A DNA stretch of 64,000 nucleotides from Allacma fusca (taxonomy: Eukaryota; Arthropoda; Collembola; Symphypleona; Sminthuridae). This document shows, piece after piece, positions 4,558 to 61,746 of this stretch. The stretch lies in the NCBI GenBank assembly GCA_947179485.1, contig OX359247.1:56889131-56953130 (forward strand). The letters run 5' to 3'. Numbering within the stretch: the stretch's first letter is position 1; each line of letters opens with the position of its first letter. The position numbers and the translations under genes were made by a program. A model generated the notes under the pieces. The model was not told where the DNA came from. It worked only from the letters and a program-made list of their open reading frames with translations, and ran no database searches.

Positions 4558-5622
4558 ATTACAGGTAGTAGCAAATTGTGGGTACATGTATTAAATTTTA
4601 GTTTTCAGTCTGGGTACGGGTGCCAAACAAATTTACCCAGACAGTCGGTAACGGGTATAGGTACAGTATATCGTCTTAACGGATGTTGGGGTACGGGTAC
4701 TCTCTCTGCACCCAGTACGAGCAGTGGTATTTGCATTCTTGACTCCCATTTACAGTGTAAATTCATAGTGAAAGTGCTAAAAGTGTTTTGGCAATATTGG
4801 GAAATGGCGTGGAATGAGAGACTCAGTAATTAAATTAAAAATTGATAATAACATCTCACGTTATTAATAATGCACAGTAAAGGTTTAATTCCTGAAGTCA
4901 CAGATTTCAGCAGGAGATGACCTCAGTGTCGTAGACGTAATTACACGTTTCGTCCTAGTTGGGTCTCTGCCAGTGCTCGGACTGGGTACGGGTAATACTC
5001 GGGTAAATGGGTACGGGTACAGATATGGGTACTACCCGGGTACAGAAGTTGCGTACTCGCAAGTACGCGGGTACTACCCGGGTACTCTTGATTTTAGGCA
5101 ATAAAGTGGGTACAGGTATGGGTACTCACTCAGTGACAATCGGGTAGTACCCAATGGGTACGGGTATCACTATGTAAAATTCCTGTACCCGTGGGTGCTG
5201 TACCCGAGTATTATTGGGTACTCAAGGATTCCTAATGGGATGGATTACTATGGCTAACAATAAGACCTACCAACCGTGGAGTTGTTTATTTCTTTGCATA
5301 TCTACAGATACTTGCGTTAGTGACAGAGCCAAGTGGCTTCGTCTCATTTATGATTACGTGGTAGTTGCAATCTAACGCTTCTACTAATTCATCCAAGGAA
5401 TCTAATAAAGAAATAGAGCGTAGAGTCAGTGAAATCATGTGTTTATCGACTTAAATAGTGAAGCTCGTCAACGAAGAATTTCAAGGGGGAGGTTCTTGGG
5501 ATTTAATTTAATTAGCTTCATTGGGAGCGTAACATTACAATTATTTGAAGACGTATTACGAGATAAGGTCGGAATAAATATACATTTATTAGCAGATCCA
5601 TTTCTTAGCGTTACAAGTACCC

Positions 5623-6443
5623 AGGGTCGCCCATTTGAAAACGCCAAGGCATTTTATGCAGACAATTTGAGCATTTTCAATTCAGGGTATTTATGACACT
5701 TTGAGTATTTATTGAGGTGAATATTTATAACATTTTAGAATGAAAAATATCATTCCTTGCACGCAATATTTATATTTCAGTCCCTTTGATTAATGTTGAT
5801 AATTTTGACGTTAAAAGAACTTGACAGACATCTGAACTTGGCGTTCAAAACTTCCATGGGGTTGCATTTTAGTCCTATTTTGCCTGTATTTTTCGAAAAT
5901 CTCCGTCTCGGGCTTTATAAATGTGAGAGACAGTTTACGAATGTTTGTTTTATAAAGCTGCAATATAAAATTAATATTCAATATTGCCTCCCACATTTAT
6001 TTCCTGAAACTGCAGTGTTTGACTTGGAAAAATTATGATCAACTCAATTTTTCCATATAACATTTTCTATACACAGTGTACGATTAGCCGTAAACGATTA
6101 GCCGGGGAAAAATTGTTTCTTGTTCTCGAAGTTGAAAAGCAAGTTATGGAGAGTTTAGTATTAAAGAATCCGTCCCAATTCCAATTAGCCTAGAACACAT
6201 TTCATTTCATTCAGCAAGTTATTATTTTGGGGTAGTAGGATTTGAATTTCGTCAGTGTTTATTAAAAAAATCGCAAAATGCCTTAAATAATGTTTTCAAA
6301 AAATTCAAATAGGATGTCTTTAACGCATAGGGAAAATTCCCAAAATCGCGGACACTTTTAATGGAGGTCAAAAAATTGACAAATTAAAATTTTTCAGCTG
6401 GGCAGGCTATTGTCGTCGGGGATTTTAAATCAGCCAAACTTCC
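5623..6443. mobile_element. Unclassified insertion inside family A copy 2
   Basis: Copy 1 is continuous across this point, while copy 2 carries about 820 extra bases. The short direct repeat AGTACCC lies at 5616-5622 and 6444-6450 and could be a target duplication, though AGTACCC is common in this family. No convincing terminal inverted repeats and no coding frame were found. Confidence 0.4.
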
Positions 6444-6515
6444 AGTACCCGAGTAATACCCGGGTACACACAATAGATACTCGGGTACGGGTACAGGTTT
6501 TGGGTACATTACTGG

Positions 6516-6879
6516 TACGGGTAAAATGTGGGTACAGGTACTACATTGTATTTTCAGGTACGGGTACGGGTACTGAAATAATTTACCCGGTTACTCGGGT
6601 ATGGGTACGTTTATAGGTACAGCATTTTGTAGTACCCGATATTCGGGTACGGGTATGGGTACGACATTAGCGATCCAGTTGATCTGCACTGCAGAGACCA
6701 GTGCTCGGACCGGGTACAGAAACCGTGTACCCGTACCCATACCCGTACCCGAATATCGGGTACTACAAAATGCTGTACCTATAAACGTACCCATACCCGA
6801 GTAACCGGGTAAATTATTTCAGTACCCGTACCCGTACCTGAAAATACAATGTAGTACCTGTACCCACATTTTACCCGTA
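6516..6879. repeat. Perfect inverted duplication with 148-bp arms
   Basis: Bases 6516-6663 and 6732-6879 are reverse complements with no mismatch found by eye, separated by a 68-bp spacer. The spacer holds the family A terminus CAGTGCTCGGAC in reverse and the flipped target duplication GCAGAGAC. One arm is the right part of family A copy 2; the other is its inverted duplicate. Confidence 0.85.
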
Positions 6880-8683
6880 TTATTATTGTATTATTATTGT
6901 AGTTTTTCTACTGAAGGAAGTAATAGAATTCAATAGAACCGCAAAACAGAGCAAGAAAAGTGTTATAAATTTGTAAAATTTTGCACACAAATTTTTTAAA
7001 AATATATAATAAAGCAGTGAGCTCTGATTCCAAGATCAATGCACCGCACAGGAAGAAGTTATTATTTATCATTATTACGCCCTGATGAAGATCAATGTTT
7101 GAGATTGAAAGCTGGCAAATGAATTGATTCTAAGCATTGTTCACGTATTCCTATTATTTCAACATGGATGATATTACAGCAAGTAATTATTATAGTTTTT
7201 ATGCCTCGCGGCTACGTTTGTGAAGACTTGTATGACATTAAAGTCTGAATATCCGTAATTCCTAGTAACGTATTCGCCGGTACATTTGTTAGTGTATAAT
7301 TTGTATATGAGCTCAAAAAAAGATTTATTGAGAATGGGCTTATGAATACATACAGTAGGACAGCTGCTGTCATACAGTGTTACAAGCCAATATAATTATA
7401 TATTGCACTAAAATTGAGCATCACTATTCTCAATATTATGGACACTACGTCATTTTAGCGTCCTCACATTTTGTGTCAATATTTTATTTAAGCAGCTACT
7501 CTGTCATATGTATATAATTCCCTTTGCTTTTGTAAGCCTGCAATATGTATGTACGTAATTGATGCCCAATTTTAATCAAACTCAAATGGTATACGTGTGT
7601 GTAATGATATGACTTTTGCGACAAAATTTCTTATCAAATTGGACCGTTAGAACGTCCCCAGGGTCTCATCATATAGCCATTTCGAAGTTTTGTACAGGTG
7701 CCCCTGCTCAAATTATTGACATTAGGGAGTAATTTACACTCCACTATTTTCGCACTGTAGACATAATTATATATTTGCCCAAAGAGAAGAAATGTGGAAT
7801 TCAAATTGACAAGTAATTTTTCTTCCCATTCAATTCCCGTCATCATCACCTGCAACCATTACCGTATTTCCCTCCTGCCTTTTCCATATGTGGTTTGCCT
7901 AGACTCTAAAAATGGGACTGACTACTATCCGCAATTAAAAATGCGCATTTCAAGTACGTGGCCTGTGACGGGGCACATCGATCCAGATATTCAAGAAAAT
8001 GGAAGGAATGAAAATCCTCGTGTAGGCTTGTCATTCTCGGCCATTGAAGCACTCAGAGATCTTCGGACACAGGTAACGGAATTTATTTACAGACTGAGAA
8101 GCTTTCACCCAAAATTATGAGCTTTCCAAAGTAAGTTGGTGAATAATGGTTAAAGTGTTTTGTCATTACTACTAATGGAATTATGACAGTCAAGTGTGCC
8201 TAACAAGGAGTGAGTAATCAAGTTTTGAAATCTTGTCAAAAATATTATTTAATGCTGCGTATGTACAGTAAGGCGAGTGAGGATTAAAAGCCGAAAGAGT
8301 TTTGACAGCACAAATTATGCACAATATAAAACACAAATACTAAAAGGCGTAAAGTGTCGATGCACTTTCATGTTTTTTATCCCCTGCTAAAATCAAGGTA
8401 ACTATATCCATTTGATCACAATTTGTTTTAACACAATGTATTTTTTTAAACGCACGTACAACAACATTAATATTTTCGTGAAATCGGGTTCTATTTTTAC
8501 ATTTGGAAAGAGAAAATAAATGCAATGTTACCATGCTTTTGCTTCCCCAGTTGTCTGAACCTGAACGAAATGTAAAACACTTAATTGTTAAAGTAAAGAT
8601 ACCTTACTGCGTTTCCCGCTCAACATTTTACATCCCCTTTAGCATTTATTTTTGAGGCCAGTGCAAAGTTATAAGATTTTTCA
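6880..8683. other. Intergenic, upstream of receptor 1
   Basis: AT-rich DNA with no recognisable gene. A 108-codon open frame at 7794-8120 has no domain, no paralogue in the window and no splice partner. No convincing promoter element was identified for the receptor gene that follows. Confidence 0.45.
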
Positions 8684-11228
8684 ATGATGTTATTGGATTT
8701 TGAAAAGGTACAAGCCTTGTGGAGCAAGCAAGGGAAAAATCCTCACAAGCAATTTGTGAGGAACGTGACTCATCAAATGGAGAAGGTCTTTAAGAATGAT
8801 CTACGACGAGAGGATGATCTCTATGTGTCAATGCGGAGTTTCCTGATTTTTGGACAAGCTCTAGGAATTGTACCGATTCGAGGACTGGGACAAAAAAATT
8901 GTAGAGTACTTCATTTCCGGTAAGAACCATGGAACATTTCAACTTTCAATTTACGTTATCCTATTTGTGTACCCCAGTAAATAGATTCTTATTAAATGGT
9001 CTGGATTTGAAGCCAACTTAATTACGTTTACTGTAAAAATGAAAAACAGTAAAAATGTATATATTTTTTGCAAGCTTAATAATCAAAAACGAAAATATTT
9101 TATTTTATTTTGTGGAAAATAAGGAACTCTCTTATGAGCGCATTTTCTATAGGGAAAAATTACGGGCCGTATTCACGTTGAGCCCCGTGTTATTTTTGCT
9201 ACTTATAAGAGCATGTCAATGTAGGAGTCAAATTTTGCTCCGCTTTCACGATATCGAGAATTCACTTTGTCGTACATAATTTAATTGTGTGTAATTACTC
9301 CTTTCATATTTAGACATGAAAATGTACATGAAATAACTCAATGCGAATGCATTAATTATGACTTGAAAATTGTGATTTCAGGTGGTGCAGTTGGCAGACA
9401 TTTTACAATACAGCAATGACGATGTTACTAGTCCTTGCCGCCATGCTTAACCTTGTCGTTTGCTTTCAAGTGAGAGGGAAGAATCCTAGTGAGTTGGCCT
9501 GGTCAGCCAATATGGCAGTGTACTATTCCATTGGGGCTTTCAAGTATGTATTAATTACAAAAACCACTAATCTATTACGAGGACATGACATTCATACATA
9601 TGTAACTCATATTAATTCCATTCTAATTTTGTTTACTTCTAATTTATCTCTGGAAAATTCTAGCTACCAATTCTTCCTGCGAAATACAAGACGAATCATA
9701 GAATTATTCAAAACGTGGCAGGAAGTTGACTTAAATTTCGTAGGAATTGATAAGAATTTATTTCGGGACAGTGTTTTGATCTCTGGATGCATTTACACCT
9801 TTTGTATATTCGAGCATGCTTTTTCTCATTTGAAATTTTTCCCTTTGGTGGAAGTGGCTGAGAGTGAGTAAAGCTGGGATCTGGAGCTTGTGTAAACTTT
9901 GACTGTAGAAATTTTGTCGTTCGATTTTCTATCAAATTTTGCAATTTTTGTTCCCCCAAAAAATTGTTTAATATATTGATTTTAGGACGATTACTTTCGG
10001 AGCCAAAAGTGCAAGGGATTCTAAAGAATGCAACTGCCTGGGAAACTTACTACTGGAGATCGCATCCTTTCCTCCCTACCATCGTTCCCTTCAGCAACTT
10101 CGTTGCCATCACATTCTTCCTGTTGAGTAAATTTGCTATATTTGCTTGGGACTTTGGTGATATTCTCATTTCCGTCCTGTCCCGAGCCTTATACTACAAA
10201 TTCAAACTTTTGATTGAGCAAGCGGAGACGCGGTTGATTAGGAACCGCTCTACTAGTTTGGGTATGAGACCTCCCTTAAAAAATATGAAATAAATTGAAG
10301 TATCCAGGTTAGGTTATGGAATTCAATAATTCACATAGTTATTATTGTTTGTGATGCAGATTCAGAAAAATGGATCCAGCTTACGGATGACCACGCAAAA
10401 TTGTACCTTCTGATAACGGAATTTGAGGGACTGCTCTCTCCATTGGTATTTGCTTCCTTTGGGGTCAACATCTACTACCTTTGCTTGCAGGTAACAACTG
10501 TACAGATTTACTGGATTATACTTTTTTCCAACTCCCAGACCAAATAAAGTAGTGACTCATAAACTATTTGATTCCCCAAGTTTGATGAGTCTGAATACTT
10601 TTCATAGGTCAAAGTTCATTTGCTTTTAAATATGAGTTAGAATGTTTATTTCGACGATTGCTTTCTAAATTACTTGAGAGATTGAAAATAGACATTTTTT
10701 AAGCTCCCGGAAACATCTCAAAATAATTACCGAAATACGCTTATAATAATAATTCCCGTTAAATATTTGTAGCTAAATCTTGGCTTGACTCCATCAGCAA
10801 ATAATAGTCTTATAGCCAGCATTTATGCCACGTGGTCATTTATGCAATTACTCGTACGGTTACTTGCTGCAGCCATCCCTGCCGCACAAATTCACACGTA
10901 TGCACATAAGATGCTCCAAGTTTTAAAACAATGTCCGACACCTTGCTATACTACGGAGGTAGAGAAATATTTGTCTAATATATTTTTTTGCTTGAATATT
11001 TTACGTCTACAATTTCCTTACAACTTGTAATTAGGCCTCCTGAATTAACTAGATAAAATATGGATGTAACAGGTGGACCGAACGGAAAGATTCTTGGCTG
11101 TCACCAAAATCGGCTTGTCTGGTCTGGGATGCTTTACCATTACCAGGCCATTTATCCTCTCTATTGTGAGCGTTGTTTTCACTTTCGAAATTGTACTACT
11201 TCAGTCCACGGTGGTGGACACCCCTTAA
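8684..11228 (+). CDS. Gustatory receptor, sugar-receptor type (receptor 1)
   Basis: Seven exons: 8684-8919, 9382-9543, 9664-9863, 9986-10261, 10360-10490, 10773-10958, 11073-11228, joined in phases 2,2,1,1,0,0 to give 448 residues. All introns are GT-AG. The product is a multi-span membrane chemoreceptor of the arthropod trehalose/sugar receptor family. Family hallmarks are ELAWSANMAVYYSIG, FEHAFSHLKFFP, ATAWETYYWRSHPF, AWDFGDILISVLSRALYYKF, LSPLVFASFGVNIYYLCLQ and, in the last exon, TFEIVLLQ in place of the general receptor signature TYxxxxxQF. The ATG at 8684 opens the longest frame with two Met codons; the true start could differ slightly. It is the most divergent of the three copies, lacking the QPFSENL stretch before intron 1. 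A possible AATAAA poly(A) signal is at 11333-11338. Ligand is inferred from the family only. Confidence 0.9.
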
Positions 11229-26067: not shown

Positions 26068-29000
26068 TTACATTCTTTTTGAAATTTCCTCAAGAAAACG
26101 ATAGATTAGTGTGGCAAAATCCTTATTAGTATTTTTAATTAAGCTTTCCCAGAAAGTTTCAATGAAGGGATGATGCGAAGGATTGATATTGGATAGGCTT
26201 GCTGGTCTATAGTTGGAGAGCAAGTGGCATTCAAGGAAGAGATGACTCCAAGTGCTGCTAAACTGTGAACAGAAAATACATTTGTCCCGGCGTAGAGTGA
26301 TCTCGTTGAAATGAATAAATATTGACCCCATTCTGATTCGGGCTAAGATTCCTGCGATTCTTAACGGGGTAGGGGTTTTTGTATACTCTTCTGCATAGTC
26401 GTGGGTTTTGATTCGTTTGTATAAGGGGAAATGAGTCGATGCCATCATTTTGGCTACATCTTGAACTACTAATGATTGTTGATACTTGCTAACTATCTTA
26501 GGTATAGCAGCGCGTATTTCGTCCGGCGATTTGCAGTTCCATAAACCTTTAGGCAGAAAATCCTTGATTCTGAAATAGAGCAGTGAGCTCCAGTTGAAAT
26601 TTTGAAGGTCCGTTTGTTCTTCCCACATGTCCTTGTAACAGCAGAGAAGCAAATTGCTGGTATTTTTCTGAAGACATTTAGTCCATAATCTTAATGATCG
26701 CCGTATGATATCCACACTTATTCTTTTAAGTTTGAAATCTAGGCTAAGAAAGAACCCAGGGGTGTTTACTGGGAGCTTTAGAAGCTTTTTCACAAAGAAG
26801 TTTTGGAGGTTGTCAATTTCTTCCAGGTGACGCAGTCCCCAGATTTCGGCGCCATAGGTCACCACGGAACGAACCATTGAGTTGAAAAGTGAGAAATGAG
26901 CTGTGCTTAGTGGAAGTTTGGCTTTTACTAATAGCGGCCATAGGGCTCCGATTGCTGCTTTACCTCTGCTTAGAAAGTCAATCAGTGTTCGATTAGGGGA
27001 GCCTGATTGAGAAAATAGGACACCCAAATATTTATATTCATTAACGCACTCGAGTTTGCTCTTTCCCCAGAAAAATGTGTGTTTCTTGGGTTTACCACCT
27101 GGCCTTTGAAAAACTACGATTTGGGATTTAACCGAATTGAGAGTTAATTTATTTTGAGCAAAGAATTTTTTAACAACGTCAATTTTTCTCTGAAGGCTTT
27201 CGGCGGAGAGGGCGAGGATTACAACGTCGTCGGCATACAGAAGGGCATGCACATGCCTTTCCCCGATCTTAATTGGACTTGTAAAGGAACTGTCAAGTGA
27301 TGCGATGATTCCATTAATGAAGATATTAAATAGAGTTGGGGAGAGACTCTCCCCCTGTAGAACACCAATATTAATTTTGAGCGGTTCAGTAAGGCCATCC
27401 TCTGTCTTAATGCGTGCTTTAGCTTGACCATATATTGCCCTGACACATTTTATAAACTTTGAACTTATTCCGGCGGAGGCCATTTTGGTCCAAAGTAGAT
27501 TATGGGTTACACAATCAAATGCACCCGATAGGTCAACGAAAAAGCAGAATAATTTGGAATTGAGTCTCAACTGTTTATGAATTAAAGATTGTAGTAGAAA
27601 TATGTGATTAAGACATCCCATGGTTGGCTGATATGCAGCCTGCAAGTCCGTTATGAAATTTGTTTTCTCATTCCACTTGAGCAGCCTATAGTTAAGTATA
27701 GTGGTAAACAATTTCAGTTTAGTCATGACCAGTGAAATGGGCCTATAATTTTTGGGGTTATCACAATCTCCTTTTTTGAAAAGTGGTGCTATGGTAACTT
27801 GAGCCCATTCAGGGGGAATCTCTCCAGAGAAATACATTTTGTCAAACAAAGTCCGCAGTTGTTCAAGGCTGGCCACAGTGAAGGATTTCCAAATTTCATT
27901 AACAAAAGCATCGGCTCCAGGGGCTTTATTTTTCTTCAGATGGTTCACAGCCTTCGTGATTTCAGATAGACTGAAGGGTTGGTCGAGTTCGCCGTCAATA
28001 TTATCGTTGCCCATTATGCAAGCGGTGACCGGACAATTGATTTTGGATTGAAACATTTTCTCATAATAGACAGTCCATGTTTGCTTATCAATAGGGCAGG
28101 TAACTTTAGGTATGTAAGGACGGAGTTCACGAATCGCTTTCCAGAAGTCACAGCTCGTTCTGGTGTTAATAATTTTAGACACCATGTTGTCTAGATAATT
28201 TTTACGGCTATTTTTTAACTTATGCTTATACTGTTTTTTGGCAATAAAGTAATCATTAACATCTTGAGTTAGTTTGGTTGCCCTAAGTCTTCTTAATTTC
28301 CTCTTTAGCTCTCTTTTCAGAGAGAGGCATGTAGAGTCAAACCATTTCGCAGGTTTAATATATTTGCAAGGTTGTTTAATCATATCACATTTCACAAGTG
28401 CGTTGTTGATAGTTTTAGAGAGTAAATCATCCATCTCATAAATAGAGGATTTATCCGAAAATAAAAGGTTTAGTTTGATTTCTGAACTGAAAGTATCTGC
28501 TTTTTCATCTGACCATTTTATTCTTTTACCAATCTCACTGCTACTAGCATGGCTACGAATTGACAAAGTTATAGGCATATGATCGGAGTGAAAAGAGTCA
28601 CTGATATTGAATTTTTCGAAATATTGAACAAGGGAGGTTGACGCAAAACATAAATCAATGGTACTTTTACCAGTTTTACTGACGAATGTATATTTTGAGG
28701 AAGATTCAAGACCACTAATACCATTAATGAGAACAAGATTGTAGGATGTAGCAAGATTAAGTAATTTTTGGCCAAAAGGGTTTACTGTTTGGTCTTCCGA
28801 GTGCCTATGTGTTTGAGAACCCAAGGTTTGGAGACTGCCTACTCTTGAGTTGAAATCTCCCATCAGTATGATGTTGTAAGATAGCAGTTCAAGTTTTTCA
28901 ATATGTGTAAACATCTCACTGAATTGACCTTTCTCAGATATTGGGTTGATGTAGCAGAACAAAACTGCAAGATTTTTAATTTCATCAAGTTTTTTAAATG

Positions 29001-29184
29001 TGAGTATAATTAGCCAATTATTTTTAAAGTATAGTTCGAATTTAATGGCGTTGTGTATTGCTGCAAAAAGTCCACCTTTATGTCTGCCGTGCGACGCATC
29101 TTTTGTGGCGTTAACTACAAAAGTTGTGTGTGTATTATCAAAATAGTTAATTGGAACCGTAGACCAGGTTTCACAGAAGCACAT
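26068..29184 (-). CDS. LINE ORF2: endonuclease and reverse transcriptase
   Basis: 1038 codons from the first Met, but the endonuclease begins upstream: codons just before it read LKILFWNVHGIANK, the usual first endonuclease motif, and the frame is open back to the ORF1 stop. Further endonuclease motifs are CETW, MGDFNSRVG, STIDLCFAS and SDHMPITLS. Reverse transcriptase blocks follow in order: KNKAPGADAFVNEIW, PLFKKGDCDNPKNYRPISL, CFFVDLSGAFDCV, GVLQGESLSPTLFNIFING and the catalytic LLYADDVVIL. The C-terminal part has a Cys/His cluster (CIFCSQFSSTWSHLFLEC). It would nick the target and copy the element RNA in place. Because the endonuclease needs residues before the Met at 29184, translation must start earlier, by a non-AUG codon, reinitiation, or read-through of the ORF1 TGA. 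Confidence 0.93.
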   Translation of the reverse strand: MCFCETWSTVPINYFDNTHTTFVVNATKDASHGRHKGGLFAAIHNAIKFELYFKNNWLIILTFKKLDEIKNLAVLFCYINPISEKGQFSEMFTHIEKLELLSYNIILMGDFNSRVGSLQTLGSQTHRHSEDQTVNPFGQKLLNLATSYNLVLINGISGLESSSKYTFVSKTGKSTIDLCFASTSLVQYFEKFNISDSFHSDHMPITLSIRSHASSSEIGKRIKWSDEKADTFSSEIKLNLLFSDKSSIYEMDDLLSKTINNALVKCDMIKQPCKYIKPAKWFDSTCLSLKRELKRKLRRLRATKLTQDVNDYFIAKKQYKHKLKNSRKNYLDNMVSKIINTRTSCDFWKAIRELRPYIPKVTCPIDKQTWTVYYEKMFQSKINCPVTACIMGNDNIDGELDQPFSLSEITKAVNHLKKNKAPGADAFVNEIWKSFTVASLEQLRTLFDKMYFSGEIPPEWAQVTIAPLFKKGDCDNPKNYRPISLVMTKLKLFTTILNYRLLKWNEKTNFITDLQAAYQPTMGCLNHIFLLQSLIHKQLRLNSKLFCFFVDLSGAFDCVTHNLLWTKMASAGISSKFIKCVRAIYGQAKARIKTEDGLTEPLKINIGVLQGESLSPTLFNIFINGIIASLDSSFTSPIKIGERHVHALLYADDVVILALSAESLQRKIDVVKKFFAQNKLTLNSVKSQIVVFQRPGGKPKKHTFFWGKSKLECVNEYKYLGVLFSQSGSPNRTLIDFLSRGKAAIGALWPLLVKAKLPLSTAHFSLFNSMVRSVVTYGAEIWGLRHLEEIDNLQNFFVKKLLKLPVNTPGFFLSLDFKLKRISVDIIRRSLRLWTKCLQKNTSNLLLCCYKDMWEEQTDLQNFNWSSLLYFRIKDFLPKGLWNCKSPDEIRAAIPKIVSKYQQSLVVQDVAKMMASTHFPLYKRIKTHDYAEEYTKTPTPLRIAGILARIRMGSIFIHFNEITLRRDKCIFCSQFSSTWSHLFLECHLLSNYRPASLSNINPSHHPFIETFWESLIKNTNKDFATLIYRFLEEISKRM

Positions 29185-29319
29185 AATTTTAGGTGATATA
29201 TCTTTAATATCACTGAAGAAATCTATTGTTTTATTGGCTATCCCATGAACATTCCAGAATAAAATTTTGAGTGGTTTAGTTGGGGTTGAGGTAGGTTGTA
29301 TTGAAGGAGCGTGTAAGTT

Positions 29320-38500: not shown

Positions 38501-39754
38501 TATATTTGTTGATGCTATTTTAGGTTAACATTTGACTTTGTATTTCAAACAGATTATCAGAGAAGATGGGCAGAAACTTAGCAATTGTCCTCATGCCTAG
38601 ATTGGCGAGATTAGTCCCGAAATTGTCCGGTTGGGGAGAGGTCATGGAGTTGGTGAAGGATGTGCGGAGCATAAGTTTAGGCCACATAGATCAGCACAAA
38701 CAAACTTTCCCTGAGAATGGAGTACCCCGGGATTTTATTGATGCTTACCTCAAAGAAATTGAGACCACAAAAGATCCTGCTTCCAGTTTTTACAAGGATA
38801 ATGGGAGTAAGAATTTTATTACCTGAAACAACTTACGAAACAAATATAATTACATATCTTCTAATGAATCAATCGCATGTGCTCCTAAATTTAAGGCATG
38901 CTGGGTGGCATAAATAATTCCCTCCCCTCTAGTTCTTATTAAGTATGGGTCAATTTACTCTAAACGGCCTTGTATGGGATTGTACCGACATTGGAATTGA
39001 TATTTGAAATGCACCTTCATTCTGTGTTCTAATTGTTTCCCTAAATAGTTCGGTCTTTGGCAGCTGTTATTGGAGATTTGTTTGGTGCAGGATTTGAAAC
39101 TGTCACTTTGACCTTATCGTGGGCTGTTCTGTATTTATCAACATTCCAGGAAGTGCAAAAGAAACTCGAAGAGGAGCTGGACAGTGTTGTTGGTCGCAAC
39201 CGTTACCCTGCTCTGGCTGATCGTCCATTGTAATACCATGCATAATATTTTACGGCAGTATTTGGGATAACAATTACTAGGCATGCAACTCATTGACACT
39301 CTGACTGAATAGGTTGCCATATGTGGAGGCCAGCATCACAGAAACTCTACGCTATTCTACCATCGTCCCATTCAATGTAATTCACACTGCAACTCAAGAT
39401 GCCAAAATTAATGGTTATGACGTTCCCAAAGGAACATGGATCATTAGCACCAACCATCGTGTTCATTTTGATGAACGACACTTCCCTAACCCCACCAAAT
39501 TTGATCCTGGAAGATTTATTTCAAAAGATGGAAAATTCCAAAAACCTGATGCCCTCTTAGCCTTCGGATTCGGTAAGCGAGTTTGTCTCGGAGAAACGTT
39601 GGCCAGAGATGAGGTATTTCTTTTCCTGACGAACATGTTCCACCGATTCAGTATTCGACTCGCCGATGAAAATCCCAATGCTACCCTCGAACCTAACCCT
39701 GGATTCACACTTGCACCTAAGGATTTTAAAGTTGTCATGACTGAGAGAAACTAG
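35567..39754 (+). CDS. Cytochrome P450, CYP2-clan type
   Basis: Seven exons: 35567-35660, 36795-36915, 37751-37860, 38185-38461, 38553-38806, 39049-39229, 39313-39754, phases 1,2,1,2,1,2, all GT-AG, giving 492 residues, the usual microsomal P450 length. An N-terminal membrane anchor ([19 protein letters not shown]) is followed by a short proline hinge ([13 protein letters not shown]). Helix C shows [21 protein letters not shown], helix [13 protein letters not shown], helix K ETLR, then PTKFDPGRF and the haem-binding loop [15 protein letters not shown] with the ligating cysteine. The product is a haem monooxygenase of the endoplasmic reticulum working with P450 reductase; substrate not predictable. 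The [16 protein letters not shown] block and intron pattern point to the CYP2 clan. An internal GTAGGC at 38332 was not used as a donor because the frame and helix pattern run straight through it. ATTAAA at 39842-39847 may be the poly(A) signal. Confidence 0.94.
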
Positions 39755-41797: not shown

Positions 41798-42758
41798 GTA
41801 CCCGCCTTGCTGAAAAAACGATTTTTAAAATCCCTGTTGGCACAAATAATTTCCCTACAAGACGTCAAATCCCTGCGAAATGAGGTCAACCATTCTAACA
41901 TTTTTTCAAAATCTGGGATCAAATTTGCTACAAACTTAGGCGATCAATTCTGCTACGAATCAACCCCTTATGTAGGCTAGGCTACTCTGACCATACTTTA
42001 TATGATGTGAGTATATGCACAACGAAGTTTAAAATGTATTGTTCCATTTATTTAATTAAATTGTTTTGTTTTTAATAAAGCGGAACATCCTGAAGAGCCT
42101 AAGATAAATTAAATTTTCAAGCTAAGATTGAAGGATAATCATTATTACCAAATAATTTTAGCCCAACAGAAATTCCTCCAGACAGAAGACGTGTCTAATA
42201 TTATAAGAATCAGATTTGGTCACTAACTTATTCACCGAATAATCTGAACTTTTATTGAAGAGAGAATTGTGCTTAATAAACTGAAACTGAATATAGTGAT
42301 TGAACATTTTAAACCACACATGTAGAATAAATAACCAGAAGGCTGATTATTTAGTACTGGAAATGAAACTGGAATTATGATCTCATGATCAAAATAACTA
42401 AACTTAATCTTGACAATCTATTAAAAACTCAAAGGGGTAAAACAGTACAAGTAGGAATAACTCACGGCCAAACACTGAGAGCTTCCAATAAATCTTTAAA
42501 AATTCTTGACTACTAACTATGTAATTATTACATCATTTACTTTTGCATATCACTACATAAATTAGTACTTGCGACTACCAAGAATGAGAACGTGGGTAGT
42601 CCCTCGTCAGAGATTCTTCAAACTCTTGTCACGTCTGGATACTTAAACATTTTCACTGATTCAGATTTTATTACAAGCAATAAAATCGTCAACTTACACT
42701 AATTACATGCTAAACTTCTTACAACTACATATGTAACTATAATAATTATAGTTACATA
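41798..42758. other. Intergenic
   Basis: AT-rich, no gene. At about 42729-42759 an ATATGTAACTATA...TATAGTTACATAT imperfect palindrome abuts the MITE that follows. Confidence 0.45.
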
Positions 42759-43590
42759 TCGTCGGTGAAGAGGCACAATGATCTAGGTACATAATCGATT
42801 AGAATCAAAATGATCTACATAACTTTTTCCTTAAATGCAAAATGAACTGGGTACAAGCCTCTTTAAAAGCAAACTGATCTACATGCAATTTTCCATAAAA
42901 GCAAAATGATCTAAGTGCCGGTATAATTTTTTGTGTAAGAAAAATATCATCTACACATGGCTTATAACTGTGATTGACCTAGGGTTGAGTTAATATTGTC
43001 TGAAGGGTTTGCTATTACTAAGGATCATTCCGGCAACTAATGGTAATTTGGCTTATTGCATCTAATATATTTTTAGTTATGATAACTGCAATATTTATTT
43101 ATTTTAAAATTGCCGAATTAAAACACGATTCAAAATCAGAGTTTACAGGTTTTGTGCTCATGTGTTAATGTGCACATTGAATTGGTTTTCCCTTATAATT
43201 CTCAACCTGGAGTTTCTTCAAATCGTATTTTACGATCATCACCATTATCATAACATTCGGAAATATTTTCAAATGTTAAATCATAATTGACAACATATTT
43301 TTTCAATGTTACTGAAAAAAAGAAATGGGGGCATTGGGGAATCGAATGCATATATAAAAGATTTTTAATACCTCGAATATTTGTACACCGGCATTAGAAT
43401 GTGTTTATTTATATTGTTTTTATTATAATTTGTATCTAGATCATTTTGCTTTTAGGAAAAGCTGCATCTAGATCATTTTGCTTTTAAAATTCAATGCAAG
43501 TAGATCATTTTGCCTTTAGTGAAACTGCAAGTAGATCATTTTGATTCTAATCGATCATGCACCTAGATCATTTTGCCTCTTCACCGACGA
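42759..43590. mobile_element. TA-flanked MITE built from GATCATTTTGC motifs
   Basis: The ends TCGTCGGTGAAGAGGC and GCCTCTTCACCGACGA are inverted, flanked by TA (42757-42758 and 43591-43592). Long inverted arms of about 150 bp repeat the motif AAAGCAAAATGATCTA/TAGATCATTTTGCTTTTA five or so times each, at spacings of 35-50 bp. No coding frame. 832 bp. Tc1/mariner-type by the TA duplication; related ends occur near 47034-47160 and 50548-50711. Confidence 0.75.
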
Positions 43591-43593
43591 TAT

Positions 43594-46585: not shown

Positions 46586-47390
46586 TATACTTATGTACAT
46601 CATAGGGCAAATCTCAATAGTCCAGTTTATGCGTATGTATAAGTGATTAAATATAGAGTGAATATATCATATCGACAACATACATACAGATGCGCAATGA
46701 TGGAGGGATTACTTTTTGGGGAATTTTGTTGAAGGATATAAAACTATGTACGTAAAAACTTGAATTTCATTGAAATAGCGAAAATCAAAATTTCATCGAC
46801 TTTCAAAAACTCAAAATCCTTATGGGATTTAACATTAACTTTTTTTGAAAAGACAGGTCCCCACCTGTGGTATCGTTTTAAATTTTGAAACTTTGGGGAC
46901 GTGTCCTAGGAGAACGGGGCAAAATGCACTCGAGTTACATGAGTTTTGAAACATACTAGGTGAGTACTAAAACATGTGCTATGCTTTGTTTGAATCGGCT
47001 TGTACCATCCCAAAATGTTACCTTGTAAGTACAATTTCGTTTAAAATCAAATTGGTCTACATGCAGTTTTACTAAAGGCAAAAAGGACTAGATGCGTCCA
47101 GTTTTAAAAGCAAAATGTTGTACATACAATTTCGCCTAAAAGCAAAATGGTCTACACACAGAAACGAATGAGAGCATAATTAGAATACGAATTTTAACTG
47201 CATATCCTTAAAAGATGAGTGGAATATGAATTTACACAGCACAGCCAAAAAAGTGTTAATCGAATATTTAGGTGCAAAACCACATGAATAAATTTAGTGC
47301 AAATTTCGTATCATCTGAAGAAAGTTATTTATCAATCATTTGTGAGCTGTAAAAATTTATCAACTAATAAAGTCGTAATGATTACTTCTT
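46586..47390. other. Intergenic with a MITE half
   Basis: At about 47034-47160 lie three CAAAATGGTCTAC-type motifs (for example AAAAGCAAAATGGTCTACAC), the left-arm pattern of the MITE family at 42759-43590. Its matching right arm is at 50548-50711, beyond the foldback element. The rest shows no gene. Confidence 0.5.
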
Positions 47391-47659
47391 ACAAGTAACC
47401 CTCACCACATGCCCTCTCGGGATTGGAATGCAATTCTGTGAAAGCTTCGGTCCCAGCGAGAACAAACGTTTGGGCCATCTCGCCCTTGTTTGCGGGGAAA
47501 TCACGAATAAGATTTGAATTCTAACTCGTCGATAAAGGGTCCCCTATCCACTCCAATTTTCCAATGTTAAATCCCGTAAGAAATTTTAATTTTCAAAAAT
47601 CGGTGTTTTATTAGATGAATGGCATATTTATAGCATGCATTCATCATACGTGTTTTTAA

Positions 47660-48366
47660 AGCCAGGTTCTCAGCAGTACGAATTCGTGTACGAAAGGTCC
47701 GTTTATGCGAATCGTTCGTACAGAACATCGTCCGATGCTGAGAATCAGATTGCGATGATTTCGTGTACGAATTCGCGCGCGAAGGACCTTTGTCCGAAAT
47801 TCGCGTCAACGCAGGAGTTCAATTATTTTAACTTATGGTACGAAATTAAAAGAGCCATTACTCATTATTTTTTGTTCTTCTTTGGATTAAAAAGCTATTT
47901 GAGTTTTAAGAACTACTTTCATACTAAACTAATGTTTTTCTTACCAGGATTGTTTTTATTGTATTTACATTCTATATTACACACTGCAGTAAAAATTCTC
48001 CTCGTTGTTTTTTACGAAGACATGGACGAATCCATTGAGTTCTTTTAATTTATCGTTTTGGTTTCCTCCAGTAATAAACTACTGTTGCACATACTGTCAG
48101 TATTTTCTTTTTTCAGTTTTACAAGTGCTGTTTTTAATTACTTCTATTTTTATAGTTTAAATATTAAAGATTAAATTAATATTAAATTAAATTAATAAAT
48201 TAATTCAGTTACACCATCTTCGTACAGTACTGTCAAAATACCATCTTTGTGAGAACCGCTCACAACGATCCCCCGCTGCATGTTCGTACGAACACTTCAT
48301 TCGTACCATCGAGCACGAAGGAAATTTTCGTCGGACGAAGAAGTTCGTACTGCTGTGAACCAGGCT
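47660..48366. mobile_element. TAA-flanked element, PIF/Harbinger-like MITE
   Basis: It starts AGCCAGGTTCTCAGCAGTAC and ends GTACTGCTGTGAACCAGGCT, inverted with two mismatches, flanked by TAA (47657-47659 and 48367-48369). Subterminal sequence repeats GTACGAA/TTCGTAC. The related foldback copy has the uninterrupted site (GTGGTTCTAGTTCAAAT at about 55091-55107). 707 bp. TTAA also fits the junction within a base, so a piggyBac-like origin is the alternative. Confidence 0.75.
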
Positions 48367-48609
48367 TAAGGTTCAAATATACGTGGTTCCAGCTACTTTC
48401 TTGACCTGAGATTGTTAACCTTAGACCTTAATTGTTGCGACCGATATTGGTCACAATTAGTTTTTTGACATGAGATTGAACAATATTGGTCACAATCAGT
48501 TGTAGACCTGAGATTGACCAATATTAGTCACAATTAGTTTTTTGCCCTAATATTGGTCACAGTTAGTTTTTTGCCCTAATATTGGTCACAGTTAGTTTTT
48601 TGCCCTAAT

Positions 48610-49150
48610 CAGGGTTGCACAAATAAAAATGCCCTAGGTTTTATGCCTGCCCTCCTGAAAATGCCCTGAAAATGCCCAAAACGCCGAAAATGCCCTGAAA
48701 ATGCCTTACTCTGAAAATGCCCGGCATTTTGGGCATTTTCAGCAGGCATTTTGGGCATATTGGGCATTTTTACAGAAACTTATACAATATGACCATTATT
48801 GCTCCTTTAACGAATATAAGGGAGTTTTTCATAGCATAATCAAACCCATCCAGTTTTAGAAAATGTTAGAAGTACTTGATTTAAAAAAAAAGAATTTAAT
48901 TAGTCTAATTTGTTACTTATGGTCAATGGTTATTTCAATAATACTTAAAAAAATTTAAGCCCCAACGGATTTGCAAACATTAATTGGTGTGAATATGCCG
49001 AAAATGCCTGCCCTAGGCTGAATATGCCCAAAATGCCCAAAGTGCCATAGATGCCCAAAATGCCATGAAATGAAAATGCCGAAAATGCCAGGGCATTTTG
49101 GGCAGGCATAATGCCGAAAATGCCATGGCATTTTCAGTTGTGCAACCCTG
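48610..49150. mobile_element. hAT-like MITE inside the foldback arm
   Basis: The ends CAGGGTTGCACAA and TTGTGCAACCCTG are perfect 13-bp inverted repeats, and GCCCTAAT is duplicated exactly (48602-48609 and 49151-49158). It splits one 39-bp unit between GCCCTAAT and ATTGGTCACAG. The subterminal DNA repeats AAAATGCCC/GGGCATTTT many times. 541 bp, non-coding. Confidence 0.9.
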
Positions 49151-49686
49151 GCCCTAATATTGGTCACAGTTAGTTTTTTGACCCGAGATTGACCAACATT
49201 GGTCACAATAGGTTTTTGACCTGAGATTGAATCTATTTTTCACACTCGGCCTCGTGGCCTCAGATTGACCAATATTACTCACCGTTGGTTTCTTCATGTA
49301 AGATTAATCAATATTTGCCACATCTACCTTCTTGACCTATAATTGGTCAATATTGATCACAATTGGTTTTTTGACCTGAACTTGACCAATGTTGGGCACG
49401 ATTGTTTTCTTGACTTCGGATCAAGAATATTGGTCACAATCGGTCTCTTGAATTTTAAAAATGCTCTTAAATGTATGCTATTTCTACACATAAGTTGGAG
49501 TTATCGGAGCTTTGCGAAATATTTTTAGGATTAAAAGGCATTAAAGAAAATGTGTTGTTCAAATAACTAAATGTTGAATTCAAAAACCACAAAGTATTCC
49601 AACTTTGATTGATGTGAGTGACACCCACGACTGCAAAAATTTGATCCAAATTTGCAACATACCGGGGAAATCAAAATAATTAAATA

Positions 49687-50205
49687 ATATTGTTCAATCT
49701 GTGGACACGAAACCGAATGTGAACAATATTGGTCAATCTGTGGACACGAAACCGAATGTGAACAATATTGGTCAATCTGTGGACACGAAACCGAATGTGA
49801 ACAATATTGGTCAATCTGTGGACACGAAACCGAATGTGAACAATATTGGTCAATCTGTGGACACGAAACCGAATGTGAACAATATTGGTCAATCTGTGGA
49901 CACGAAACCGAATGTGAACAATATTGGTCAATCTGTGCCCAATCCCAACAATATTGGGCACAGACTGTGCCCACGAGTCCGAGTGTTACCAATATTGGTC
50001 AATCTGTGGCCACGGGACCGAGTGTTACCAATATTGGTCAATCAGTGCCCACGAGTCCGAGTGTTACCAATATTGGTCAATCTGTGCCCACGAGTCCGAG
50101 TGTTACCAATATTGGTCAATCTGTGGCCACGGGACCGAGTGTTACTAATATTGGTCAATCTGTGCCCACGAGACCGAGTGTGACCAATATTGGTCAATCT
50201 CAGGT
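49687..50205. repeat. 39-bp minisatellite, twelve units of two types
   Basis: Six nearly identical units contain GTGGACACGAAACCGAATGT then GAACAATATTGGTCAATCT (49700-49935). One irregular linker follows, then six units of type GTG(G/C)CCACG(A/G)GNCCGAGTGTTACCAATATTGGTCAATCT (from about 49968). Because 39 is a multiple of 3, open frames run through it on both strands; these are not treated as genes. It forms most of the right arm of the foldback element. Confidence 0.92.
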
Positions 50206-50547
50206 CAAAAACAGATTGCGACCAATATCATCGAATGTCAGGTCAACAAACCAATTGTGACCAATATCGGTCGCAACAATTGTTTCATTCATCTAATGTA
50301 GCACCGAAGTTTGCATATTAAAATTTCTTATGATATTTAACGTTGACAAATTTAAGTTGGACAGGGGACCCTTTACCTACGAGTTAAAGTTTAACAAATC
50401 GACGTGATTTCTCGCGCAAACCAGGGAAAGATGGCCCAAATTTTTGTTCTCACTGTGACATTGGGCCAGGTACCTAAGCTTCCACAAAATTTCATTCCGA
50501 TCCGGAGTGAGCTTGTGACGAGGGTTACTTGTGAGCTTGTTCATTAT

Positions 50548-50711
50548 GAAAGTATGTAGACCGTTTTGCTTTTAGTGAGAACTGCAAGTAGTTCATTCTG
50601 CTTTTGGCGAGGCTTGCAACTATTCCGTTTTGCCTTTAAGGAAAAAGGCAAGTAGGCCATTTTGATTCTAATTGAAATTGCACTTATACCATTTTGCCTC
50701 TTCACTGACGA
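50548..50711. mobile_element. Right arm of a GATCATTTTGC-type MITE
   Basis: It contains TGTAGACCGTTTTGCTTTTA, three more such motifs and the terminal CCTCTTCACTGACGATA, closely like the right end of the 42759-43590 element and followed by TA (50712-50713 frame). Its left arm appears at about 47034-47160, so the foldback element probably landed inside this MITE. Confidence 0.6.
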
Positions 50712-54824: not shown

Positions 54825-56350
54825 ACATGTAATCCTCACCACATGCCCACTCCGAATCGGAATGAAATTTTTTGGGAGCTTAGGTACCTGGCCCAATGTC
54901 CAAGCTAGACCGAAAGACCAAAGGCCATCTCACCCTTGTTTGCGCGGAAATCGCGCAGAAGTTTTAAATTTTCGTGAGCAAAGGCCTTTCCAACGTAAAT
55001 TTTCCAATGTTAAATCCTGTAAGCAAGTTTCAGTTTCGAAAGTCGATGCTGTTTTAGATTAACGACACATTTATGGCATGCATTCATCCTAAGTGGTTCT
55101 AGTTCAAATACTGACCACTTTTGGTAAACATGGTTTCTTGGTTTTAGGTTAACCAATAGTGATAAGTGCTGTTTCTTGACTTCAGATTGATCAATATTGG
55201 TCCACGCTACCTGCTTGACCTCATAATGATCAATGCTGGTCACAATTTTTCCCTTGGCCTCAGATCGGCCAATATTTGTCAGAACTCGTTCTTGGTCACA
55301 TTTCGCAATATTTCCTCAGATTGCCCAATATTGGTCAAAGTCTTTCTCTTGGCCTCAGATCGACAAATATCATTCTAAATTAGTTTTTTGGCCTCAGATT
55401 GCCAAATATTGGTCACACTTAGTTTTTTGGCCTCAGATTGAGAAATATTGGTCACGATTAGTTTTTTGGCCTCATATTGAGAAATATTGGTCACAATTAG
55501 TTTCTTTGCCTCAGATTGATCAAAACTGATCCAATCTACCTTCTTGACCTTATATTGATCAAAATTGATGTATAAGCTGCCTTCTTGACGTCATATTGAT
55601 CAAAACTTGTTTAAGCTACCTTCTTGACCTCAGACTGGTTAATATTGGTTAAAGCTACCTTCTTGACCTCAGATTAGTAAATATTGGTCAAAACTACCTG
55701 CTTGACCTCAGATTGGACAATATTGGCCACAATGAGTTATTTGAATTATAATTGGCTAACATTGGCCACAATTTTTATCTTGACCTCATAATGGCCAATT
55801 TCGGTCACAATATCACTCTTGGCCTAAAATTGTTTAATATTGGTCACAATTTTTATCAAGACTTCAGATTGGCCAATATTGGTCACAATTTTTATCAAGA
55901 CTTCATATTGGCCAATATTGGTCACAATTTTTATCAAGACTTCAGATTGGCCCATATTGAATGAAAATTTTTATCATGACTTAAGATTGGCCAATATTGG
56001 TCACAATATTTCTCTTGACCTCAGATTGGCCATTTTTGGTCAAAATTTTTATCATGACTTCAGATTGGCCATTTTTGGTGAAAATTTGTAACATGACCCA
56101 AGATTGGCCATTTTTGGTCAAATTTTTTATCATGACCCGAGATTGGCCAATTATGGTCACAATTAGTTTTTGAGCCTCAGTTTGATCAATGTTGGTCAAC
56201 ATTAGGTTTTTGAGCTCAGATTGACCAATATTGGTCAACATAAGGTTTTGGGCTCAGATTGACCAATATTGGTCAACATAAGGTTTTGAGCTCAGATTGA
56301 CCAATATTGGTCTCGATTGTTATCTTGGCCACAGATTGACAAGTATTGGT
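54825..56350. mobile_element. Foldback-type element, half copy with long 39-bp array
   Basis: It begins ACATGTAATCCTCACCACAT and follows the left-arm sequence of 47391-50532 (GGAATGAAATTTT, GGCCATCTCACCCTTGTTTG, CCAATGTTAAATCCTGTAAG, GGCATGCATTCATCCTA). About 30 diverged 39-bp units then run from roughly 55110 to 56345, variants of GACTTCAGATTGGCCAATATTGGTCACAA. No opposite arm follows: the array stops where the inverted dispersed repeat begins, so this copy is truncated. Confidence 0.75.
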
Positions 56351-59340: not shown

Positions 59341-60348
59341 TAACTTAAAATTCATCCTACTTTGACGGCGATAGCTGACGCCACCCTACGCGAAGCCTAG
59401 CCACATGCAATCCAAGGGCTTTAGTTGATTGTTTTGGTTTATGACATTCTCAGTGGTTCAGATCTGAATAAGAATTTCGCTGTTTTTACTATTCAATTCT
59501 AATCTTGGCATAAGTTGCATATTCTATTCTAGTCTGGGGGTTTCAAAAATTGAGCTATTCCATTCTATTCGATTTATTTCTGTATAAATGTCGGTATTCA
59601 AATTCCTATTTTCCTATTCAAGTCGGAATAGAATAGGGCAGTAGTGCTAAGCGTCTGGTCTGCGTTGCCGAAAAGTTGCAGGAAGACTACTTAAACGATC
59701 CCCACCATGCGTTTTGTATGAGTATGTGGAAATCACTACTATGCGATGCACACTTTCACGAAGGAAGCCGTGCATGTTTTCTATTTTTTTTCTCCGCTAG
59801 ATGGATGCGTAGTTCCCAGGAACGAGAAGCGTGTAACGGGTGTGGGAACGAAGATGTTCCCGGTTCCCGACGCGAACAAGAATACCTTCATCAAGCTTGA
59901 ACCTGTTCCCAAACCCGGTCCCGTTCCCGAAATCCCGGGCCTGCAGAACGTGTTCCTGAACCTGGTCCCAAAGTATTTGGGAACATTAATTAGACACCCG
60001 AACTCGAACCCGTTCCCGATCCCGAACCCAATTCCCGGGTGTATCCCGATCCCAAAAGTAGCTCTATTTTTACCGTTGCATATTTGTTACAAAACTGTGT
60101 GTACTGAGGGGTGACCATATTCTAATCAATTACACCTCTAAACGCATAAAAGCTAAACGTATAACAGCTAAACGTATAAGCCCAATACGCATAATCAGCT
60201 AAACGTATAAGGTATCTTAACGCATAATCACCTATACGTATAAGGTATCTTAACGCATAATCATCTATACGTATAAGGTATCTAAACGAATAATCACCTA
60301 TAGATACGTATAGGATGTAGAAACGCATAAGGAGCAAAATGTATAATA

Positions 60349-60499
60349 ATGCACAAGTAAATATTGACATTCGTTTGAATTATGCTAGTGTTTTAATTGA
60401 GGGATCAAAACAATATTTAGCGTTCTTTTTAATACATTCCCTTGTAAGAGCATCGTCGTTAAAAGAGAACACTAGCAATGTAAATATTTACTTGTGCAT
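60349..60499. mobile_element. 151-bp TA-flanked MITE
   Basis: The ends ATGCACAAGTAAATATT and its inverse match perfectly over 17 bp, flanked by TA (60347-60348 and 60500-60501). It interrupts the left arm of the surrounding element. Confidence 0.7.
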
Positions 60500-60515
60500 T
60501 ATTATTAACAATTAA

Positions 60516-61574
60516 AGCTGCCAGATGCCTTCTTTTTTAGTAGACAAGCTACTATTTGGGAAGACAGTTTACTAAAAATTCATGAGATCTACTAAGTCTA
60601 CTATTTGATTGAAAAAGCTTCTAAACTCTACTTTTTTACATTTGTCTAAAATAAATGTAAAATTATTCTGTGCTGGGAAATGTGAGCGCGATCAAGCGAC
60701 ACGTTTCCGACATTTTAGAACTTGGTACCTGTAAATTGTCGAATCATTAACGTCTTTCCATGTAAAAGTAGGTCTATCATTTGAACTCCAATTATGTTCA
60801 TTGTTTCATTTCTGCAGCATACTGTAATAGTGCATTACTGTGAAGTAGTAGAAATCATAAAATGAAAATGGAGTGGAAATCATCATTAAATATTTTTATT
60901 ATATCCGTTAGTACTGAATAGTTGCTTTTATTTAAATGTAAGTACTCCGCGTGCTATTACTTGACCTAAAAAAATTAAAATGGGAGGAGATTGAACTTTC
61001 AACGATGGCTTGCAAAAAAGTACCTAAAAGTAATTACTTTAGCATCGCAGAATCTGCTTGCAAGAATGTGACAGTCCTAGTTGAGTGCTTACTTTCGCTT
61101 CCAGGTAAAATTCTTTCGACATTTGTTTTTTATAGAATTGTCTTGCTAGAAATATTTTTGTCAACACAAACAGGGTTCTGCCTCATTTCAGGAACCAGCG
61201 CTGTCACGTTTCGCTTTTATTAATAAATTGTTGACGCAGGTGAAATCTAAATTGTTTACGGAACTTCTGGAAGCAATGACAGCTGTAAAAGTTATTCTAG
61301 AATAAATTTGAGTATCATTTTATGATTTGCTATTGGGTGACACAAATTCGGTGAAACAAATTCAATTGCTCAGACAAGTATTAATTACTAATATTAACAT
61401 ACAGCAGAAGTACTTGCCAATAAGCAATATACCGTAGTTATTTTTAGAGAATGGCTGTTAAATCGCTTCACGAAAATGCTAACGGTAGAGTAGATAAATT
61501 GTTTTTATACAACGGAATAAATTTTGTCATAAAATTAAAAGGCCTACTATTTAGCTTATTTGAATCTGGCAGCT
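60516..61574. mobile_element. TTAA-flanked element, piggyBac-like MITE
   Basis: The ends AGCTGCCAGAT and ATCTGGCAGCT are inverted, flanked by TTAA (60512-60515 and 61575-61578). Subterminal pieces share CTACTATTT. No transposase frame; 1059 bp. The short termini make the superfamily call tentative. Confidence 0.6.
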
Positions 61575-61746
61575 TTAATTATTATACATTTTGCTCCTTA
61601 TGTGTTTAGATACCTTATACGTATAGATGATTATACGTTTAGATACCTTATACATACGTTTAGCTGATTATGCGTATAACTCTATGCGTTTAGCTGTTAT
61701 ACGTTTAGCCTTTTATGCGTTTAGCTATGATACCATTCTAATCAAT

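Follow-up and report, generated by a model that had tools for sequence, protein, structure and literature searches.

Tc4 inserts into the interrupted palindrome CTNAG, of which only the TNA is duplicated, as stated in the accessible part of PMC11071193, and the paper that first described it, cited in the available portion of PMC6829131, calls it a fold-back element in its title. Other foldback elements carry tandem repeats in their arms. In the accessible text of PMC4079207, the arm repeats of Tetris, a foldback element of Drosophila virilis, have seeded satellite arrays, and in the available text of PMC3688188 the THAP domains of Galileo bind sites within the tandem repeats of its long arms. 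A C|TNA|G target is also given, in the accessible part of PMC4482050, for the PHIS element NuwaII, whose ends measure 13–46 bp and mostly start with GG, and the available excerpt of PMC12477816 describes TNA as the classic Harbinger duplication, which means that the target does not by itself fix the class of an element.

Here we describe an element in a 64-kb stretch of DNA, C10:56889131-56953130 (hereafter the window), from a genome of 393 Mb in 91 contigs. It is an old, gene-less transposon of the Tc4/Tc5 kind, with mirror-image arms that bear arrays of a 39-bp unit. We read its family as a cut-and-paste foldback transposon of Tc4/Tc5-like type (Tc1/mariner superfamily), decayed and non-autonomous, in which the 39-bp arrays are passengers, and assign this reading a probability of roughly 0.78. 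Related loci fetched from the genome are labelled L005 onwards.

Structure of the window element

The inverted ends of the window element are CAAGTAACCCTC. An exact ACAAGTAACCCTC lies at 47391 (+) and at 50532 (−), the two copies facing one another; the element proper spans 47392–50531; as originally delimited, each end reached one base into the target copy. The inverted arms pair 47388–47621 with 50286–50535 and, compared over the first 200 bp of each, show 81.8% identity in 181 columns. Exact facing ends, inverted arms and arrays together confirm the original prediction of a foldback element with 39-bp unit arrays in its arms; long inverted arms composed of tandem repeats are the structure by which foldback elements are recognized.

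Starting from the left, a target copy TTA at 47389–47391, preceded by C and placed by the flank consensus of 60 ends (target C|TNA|G), adjoins the left terminal inverted repeat (CAAGTAACCCTCACC..., 47392–47640, + strand), which was delimited by arm comparison. Inside the left arm sits a nested short inverted-repeat element, GCCAGGTTC...GAACCAGGC (47661–48365). The left-arm 39-bp array reads on the + strand in two parts, with 4 units at 48439–48584 and 6 units at 49156–49451, split by a second nested short element, CAGGGTTGCACAA...TTGTGCAACCCTG (48610–49150), which has the 8-bp duplication GCCCTAAT on both sides and which, from that duplication, we take to be hAT-like. A unique core follows at 49452–49685; positions 49502–49629 share 80% identity with the L043 core and are related to the cores of L036, L052 and L054. 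The right-arm array, 16 units at 49638–50272, has a weak inner edge that overlaps the core and runs on the − strand, so that the units read in opposite directions in the two arms, as had been predicted. It contains five exact 39-mers at 49725–49919 and, at 50181–50196, the sole perfect TGACCAATATTGGTCA of the element. The right terminal inverted repeat (50286–50531, − strand) is followed by a target copy TGA at 50532–50534, its middle base unlike that of TTA, and then by G.

A second family member at 54825–56350 (+) has a single arm, with its end at 54825 and a 31-unit 39-bp array at approximately 55112–56350; no right end for it was found within the window. Elsewhere in the window, a 1083-aa frame at 26071–29319 (−) resembles that of a non-LTR retrotransposon in having endonuclease and reverse transcriptase domains, and a cytochrome P450 frame at 39305–39751 (+; Pfam p450, 1.7e-45) is probably an exon.

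Target site and duplication

Family ends occur 579 times genome-wide at up to 3 mismatches, compared with 10 for a control, and a 147-base end query gave 959 candidates, the 40 of which that were scored yielded at least 41 matches. The family arms exceed 200 bp and begin with CA. In 60 ends from the fetched loci, the bases preceding CAAGT are C (53/60), T (57/60), any base and A (58/60); the search pattern itself begins with A, so the adjacent A is partly fixed by selection, and the C and T are free.

In 18 of 24 two-ended copies the TNA on the left matches that on the right; the other 6 disagree, the window copy among them. A fixed rule applied to the fetched loci found 16 two-ended copies, 11 with agreeing TNA; the five disagreeing pairs are L048 and L049 (which have the same flanks), L033 (degenerate ends), L012 and the window copy (TTA/TGA). 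The further pairs comprise six with known coordinates, all of which agree, L066, which agrees, and L038, which does not. In a separate tally of 20 pairs, which left out L029 (agreeing) and L033, L038 and L049 (disagreeing), 17 agree, compared with a shuffled mean of 7.0, and none of 20,000 shuffles reached as high a count. From the flank consensus and the agreement between paired copies, we conclude that the family inserts into C|TNA|G and duplicates the TNA. Insertion at CTNAG with duplication of TNA is the Tc4/Tc5 pattern, seen in 18/24 copies, with the window copy disagreeing. Target duplications in the P superfamily, Galileo included, are approximately 7–8 bp, unlike the 3 bp of this family.

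The fetched loci also show variation within the family. L030, L046 and L067 form a sub-type whose arm diverges from the main arm past CATGCGAC. The array-bearing copies L051, L052 and L054 have similar flanks made of a tandem repeat of about 164 bp, so the piece with the element inside it was probably copied as a block.

Transposase remnants and coding relatives

A search of the genome for the C-terminal domain of Tc5 transposase gave 11 matches, two of which were read (L068 and L069). L068 has a 581-aa frame matching Transp_Tc5_C (2.9e-10) and DDE_1 (2.2e-6), with HTH_Tnp_Tc5 below its cut-off, between inverted repeats of 250–261 bp that are 94% identical and are flanked on both sides by C|TTA|G, a TTA/TTA duplication. 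Its ends are CAAGCAAAG, unlike the CAAGTAACC of the family, and both of its arms share with the family arm, at comparable offsets, a 40-bp stretch that is 85% identical. L069, a more distant relative with 31% aligned identity to L068, scores above the cut-offs for both Transp_Tc5_C and HTH_Tnp_Tc5. The aspartates lie at 314, 432 and 466 in L068 and at 196, 310 and 350 in L069, motifs that we take to resemble the pogo/Tigger type. Comparison of the two proteins with solved structures gave nothing useful (best E 0.43 for L068 and 0.092 for L069).

A direct link between the family and this transposase comes from L070, a family element at C10:50485417-50486487, which holds a 39-aa transposase tail with 56% identity to L068 (E 1.5e-8 in the small set of fetched loci, 1.1e-6 genome-wide). 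The last codons of the transposase and a stop are followed by the family arm, at 91% identity. The 49-aa piece of L070 taken alone has no Pfam match; a genome search with this tail gave 7 matches, one of which, C8:60811405, is found 1.3 kb inward of the family end at C8:60812802. Another, at C12:30346416, is 78% identical and adjoins larger transposase pieces; C12:30342789-30346514 is the leading candidate for a coding partner, now decayed. A transposase between similar ends, proposed as a check in the original prediction, was seen as a Tc5-type C-terminal tail in L070, with complete frames in the relatives L068 and L069; no copy read combines an intact coding frame with CAAGTAACCC ends. Co-location of ends and transposases was assessed visually in a subset of the 579 ends. 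Counting against the Tc4/Tc5-like reading are the different ends of L068, the shared arm stretch of just 40 bp, the L070 piece without a Pfam match, the six pairs with disagreeing TNA copies and the missing intact coding copy.

Other transposases had been considered. PIF/Harbinger (PF13359, 160 matches) and CACTA (PF02992, 28 matches) were searched first owing to the 3-bp duplication, and the one co-location read, at C1:74079900, is that of a short copy of the family and, next to it, an independent Harbinger element. Four matches to PF03184 were judged to be near an end; the one read, L067, is an element of its own at 3475–6021, presumably Tigger-like, with frames at 4153–4641 and 4700–5509, its own inverted ends and a family-like end alongside, and is not a partner. 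The L068 protein has a weak match to the L067 frame.

Arrays, ends and copy age

The 39-bp arrays are tied to the ends of the family from both directions of sampling. Among eight loci selected for dyads (L035–L042), seven hold a family end, the remaining one (L037) having none within the 7 kb read. In 30 loci selected for ends (L005–L034), an array lies within 1.5 kb inside the end in 19 and outside it in 1, which upholds the predicted association of arrays with ends. An array was called present at a score of 60, a cut-off set after viewing shuffles (up to 33), and 30 shuffled controls scored up to 31. The window element (L009) is one of the end-selected loci, as are related copies, L007 and L008 among them, and the 1.5-kb inward scan may overrun the far end of short copies. 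Most arrays start 230–335 bp inward of the ends and mirror each other in orientation: the stronger array match reads inward in 15 of the 19 loci, 12 of these 15 starting 231–333 bp inside the end. It reads outward in the other four (L021, L023, L025 and L031), as expected where only the array of the far arm remains.

Arrays are not found in all copies. None of six two-ended copies (L046–L050 and L065) has one; for L065 the scan covered the first 1.5 kb, and the sample of L046–L050 is biased against arrays because these copies were chosen for closely spaced ends. Arm identity is 91.7–99.5% in four array-free copies versus 72.3–86.1% in five array-bearing copies; L046 and L047 are old yet array-free. 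Since the youngest copies measured are array-free, the arrays are probably cargo, not a required platform. The unique core is common to array-bearing copies, so these copies probably owe the array to a shared ancestor, and it travelled along with the element.

The proposed course of events starts with a Tc5-type transposase which, acting in trans, would bind the terminal repeats and cut at the ends, as is general in the superfamily. Insertion into C|TNA|G with duplication of TNA is seen in the copies themselves, and the enzymatic step behind it would be that of the same transposase. The 39-bp arrays would already have been present in an ancestral copy, and transposition would have spread them as passengers that are probably unneeded for movement. 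They may since have grown and shrunk in place by slippage or unequal exchange; array length is probably still changing, because runs of exact units sit in an old copy with arms 82% identical.

Conservation of the 39-bp unit

The original prediction gave each good unit a perfect palindrome with two facing CCAAT boxes and, across the arms, dozens of identical spaced dyads. Dyad-like sites are indeed far above chance, with 31 in the window at up to 2 mismatches versus 0.05 expected, and perfect sites number 179 genome-wide versus 0 for a control. For a 19-base core of this unit, the genome holds 3,158 sites at up to 3 mismatches versus 91 for its control. Perfection is another matter: TGACCAATATTGGTCA is perfect in 1 of the 26 units of the window element, and both CCAAT boxes are kept in 5 of these 26 and in 60 of 252 units overall, with 31 perfect palindromes among 231 ungapped units. 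The one long run of identical units is the five exact 39-mers at 49725–49919, or six aligned units, and there the dyad is one base off. With one perfect 16-mer and an identical run that lacks it by a base, the dozens of identical dyads are not borne out.

Conservation was assessed in 252 units from 22 blocks at 16 loci, which were selected for dyads or ends and are thus non-random. With loci weighted, the dyad columns have a mean conservation of 0.856 and the spacer columns 0.759; the dyad is higher by 0.096 (95% interval 0.062–0.124, loci resampled), so that one of the refuting conditions set out with the original prediction, a dyad conserved no better than the rest of the unit, does not hold. 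The most conserved 16-bp block is nevertheless not the dyad itself, which ranks fourth of 39 when loci are weighted and fifth when all units count equally. It is CAATATTGGTCACAAT, which starts at column 5 (0.872), is asymmetric and lies 4 bp off the dyad. Columns 3–4 of the dyad are weak, and symmetric paired changes number 22 versus approximately 18.5 expected, summed over eight pairs. An off-centre best block, weak columns and the lack of a clear excess of paired changes together indicate that the palindrome itself is not what is kept. Judged from these alignments, the CAATATTGGTCACAAT block is under some constraint or has turned over less; any function of the palindrome in the 39-bp unit is putative. 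Passive cargo does not explain the conserved 16-bp block.

Similarity between the unit and the family arm was not detectable, with a best score of 15 that is equalled in 74.5% of shuffles, and there is no clear similarity to the arms of L068 or L069, where shuffles match the score in 51.5% and 14% of cases, respectively. Reading frames within arrays reach 308 aa (L042), with other examples at 2587–3752 of L035 and at 49688–50257 of the window; they are unlikely to be genes, long open frames arising in arrays because 39 bp is 13 codons.

Alternative explanations

The arrays could instead be a transposase-binding platform resembling that of Galileo, with many weak sites in the arms giving specificity and aiding the pairing of ends. 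The sites bound in the arm tandem repeats of Galileo, in the accessible text of PMC3688188, are a precedent for this, the conservation of the 16-bp block across 16 arrays would fit it, and so would the regular placement of the arrays, which read inward in 15 of 19 loci and start 231–333 bp in for 12 of those. We consider it unlikely, given that none of the six two-ended copies L046–L050 and L065 has an array, including the youngest measured, with arms up to 99.5% identical, and that the unit resembles neither the family arm nor, in any clear way, the arms of L068 and L069. That the dyad would be a site for a host factor, either NF-Y at its CCAAT boxes or a dimer on GGTCA half-sites, with the arrays serving as enhancers, insulators or centromere-like seeds, appears improbable. 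The abundance of dyad-like sites (31 versus 0.05, and 179 perfect ones versus 0 for the control) and the conservation of the dyad columns above the spacer would suit such a factor; the conserved block is however asymmetric and off-centre, perfect palindromes make up 31/231 ungapped units and symmetric paired changes show no clear excess. An NF-Y platform, part of the original prediction, is unlikely in particular because only 60/252 units, and 5/26 in the window element, retain both CCAAT boxes.

Two further readings concern the class of the element and the origin of its arrays. Membership of NuwaII or another PIF/Harbinger (PHIS) group would account for the target and the duplication, since NuwaII has C|TNA|G in the available part of PMC4482050 and TNA is the classic Harbinger pattern in that of PMC12477816, and PF13359 transposases are many in this genome, with 160 matches. 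However, the transposase remnant in the family is of Tc5 type, the one PF13359 match read near an end (L066) belongs to an element of its own that lies next to a short family copy, and NuwaII, as described in the accessible portion of PMC4482050, combines a Harbinger-type transposase with ends of 13–46 bp mostly starting with GG, against family arms of more than 200 bp starting with CA; we hold this assignment to be very improbable. The arrays might also be pure satellite DNA of independent origin that captured the ends or merely neighbours them. L037, one of the eight dyad loci, has no family end in 7 kb, and at C5:41500515-41502637 exact 19-mer matches extend along one strand for 2.1 kb, by their coordinates the longest run among the matches listed. 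This run fits satellite seeding and may be a satellite array. Arrays inside the ends in 19/30 loci versus outside in 1/30 make an independent origin of the arrays as a whole extremely improbable, and we retain the reading of a Tc4/Tc5-like foldback transposon with passenger arrays.

Inverted arrays in other elements

The window element is flanked by the arms of an element with inverted arrays of a 32-bp unit (47026–47159 and 50552–50686, approximately 73% identical) and, lying between them, is a foldback nested in a foldback. A second 32-bp inverted-array copy occupies 42756–43593, with arms at 42756–42913 and 43437–43593 that are 82% identical. A third inverted array, at 60138–60302 and 61582–61733, has a unit of 31–33 bp with CTAAACGTATAA and arms 78–88% identical by stretch. 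At L066, the Harbinger-type element at 2958–9070, which has a 523-aa frame (DDE_Tnp_4, 1.4e-16), has inverted arrays of a 148-bp unit with a near-palindrome around TGACCTC / GAGGTCA.

Inverted arrays in the arms of transposons, some of them putative, thus look common in the window, which favours a general process over a special role of the dyad. A tentative extension, which we regard as possible and rather doubtful, is that the genome tends to build inverted minisatellite arrays in the arms of unrelated DNA transposons by a host-level process that does not depend on the unit sequence, and that within this process the conserved 16-bp block may be a selected binding site. The arrays that speak for it are the 39-bp ones, those of 32 bp (42756–43593 and 47026–50686) and 31–33 bp (60138–61733), both in putative transposons, and the 148-bp arrays of L066.

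Comparison with known systems

The element had been put forward as the strongest candidate for an undescribed type. It is not one, because target site, duplication, foldback arms and the transposase remnant in a family copy group it with Tc4/Tc5. A text search of the literature for three exact end and dyad strings gave no match. As far as the accessible portions of the literature go, Tc4/Tc5 elements, which occur in nematodes, arthropods and tardigrades, share with this family the C|TNA|G target, the TNA duplication and foldback arms; a Tc5-type transposase is represented by the tail inside a family copy and by a complete frame in a relative. The family differs from Tc4 in the arrays of 39-bp units in its arms; in the literature searched, as far as its text was available, no such arrays were found described for Tc4 arms.

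The arrays themselves have parallels in other elements. Galileo of Drosophila has long, internally repetitive inverted arms like those of this family, according to the available parts of PMC3688188 and PMC3573991, but it belongs to the P superfamily and has a THAP transposase, whereas the present family is of Tc5 type and its unit is without similarity to the arm. Tetris, as presented in the accessible text of PMC4079207, is a non-autonomous foldback element with tandem repeats in its arms and in longer arrays too, and has a miniature relative that shares its ends; its unit is about 220 bp, against 39 bp here. Within what these sources give, Tetris is the closest precedent.

With copies of varied age, some with arrays and some without, the family allows one to ask whether arrays aid movement or just ride, and it shows how transposons may spread tandem repeats and seed satellites. 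Its description extends to a Tc4/Tc5-like family the set of foldback transposons with tandem repeats in their arms, for which the precedents found, in the portions of the literature available to us, are those of Drosophila.
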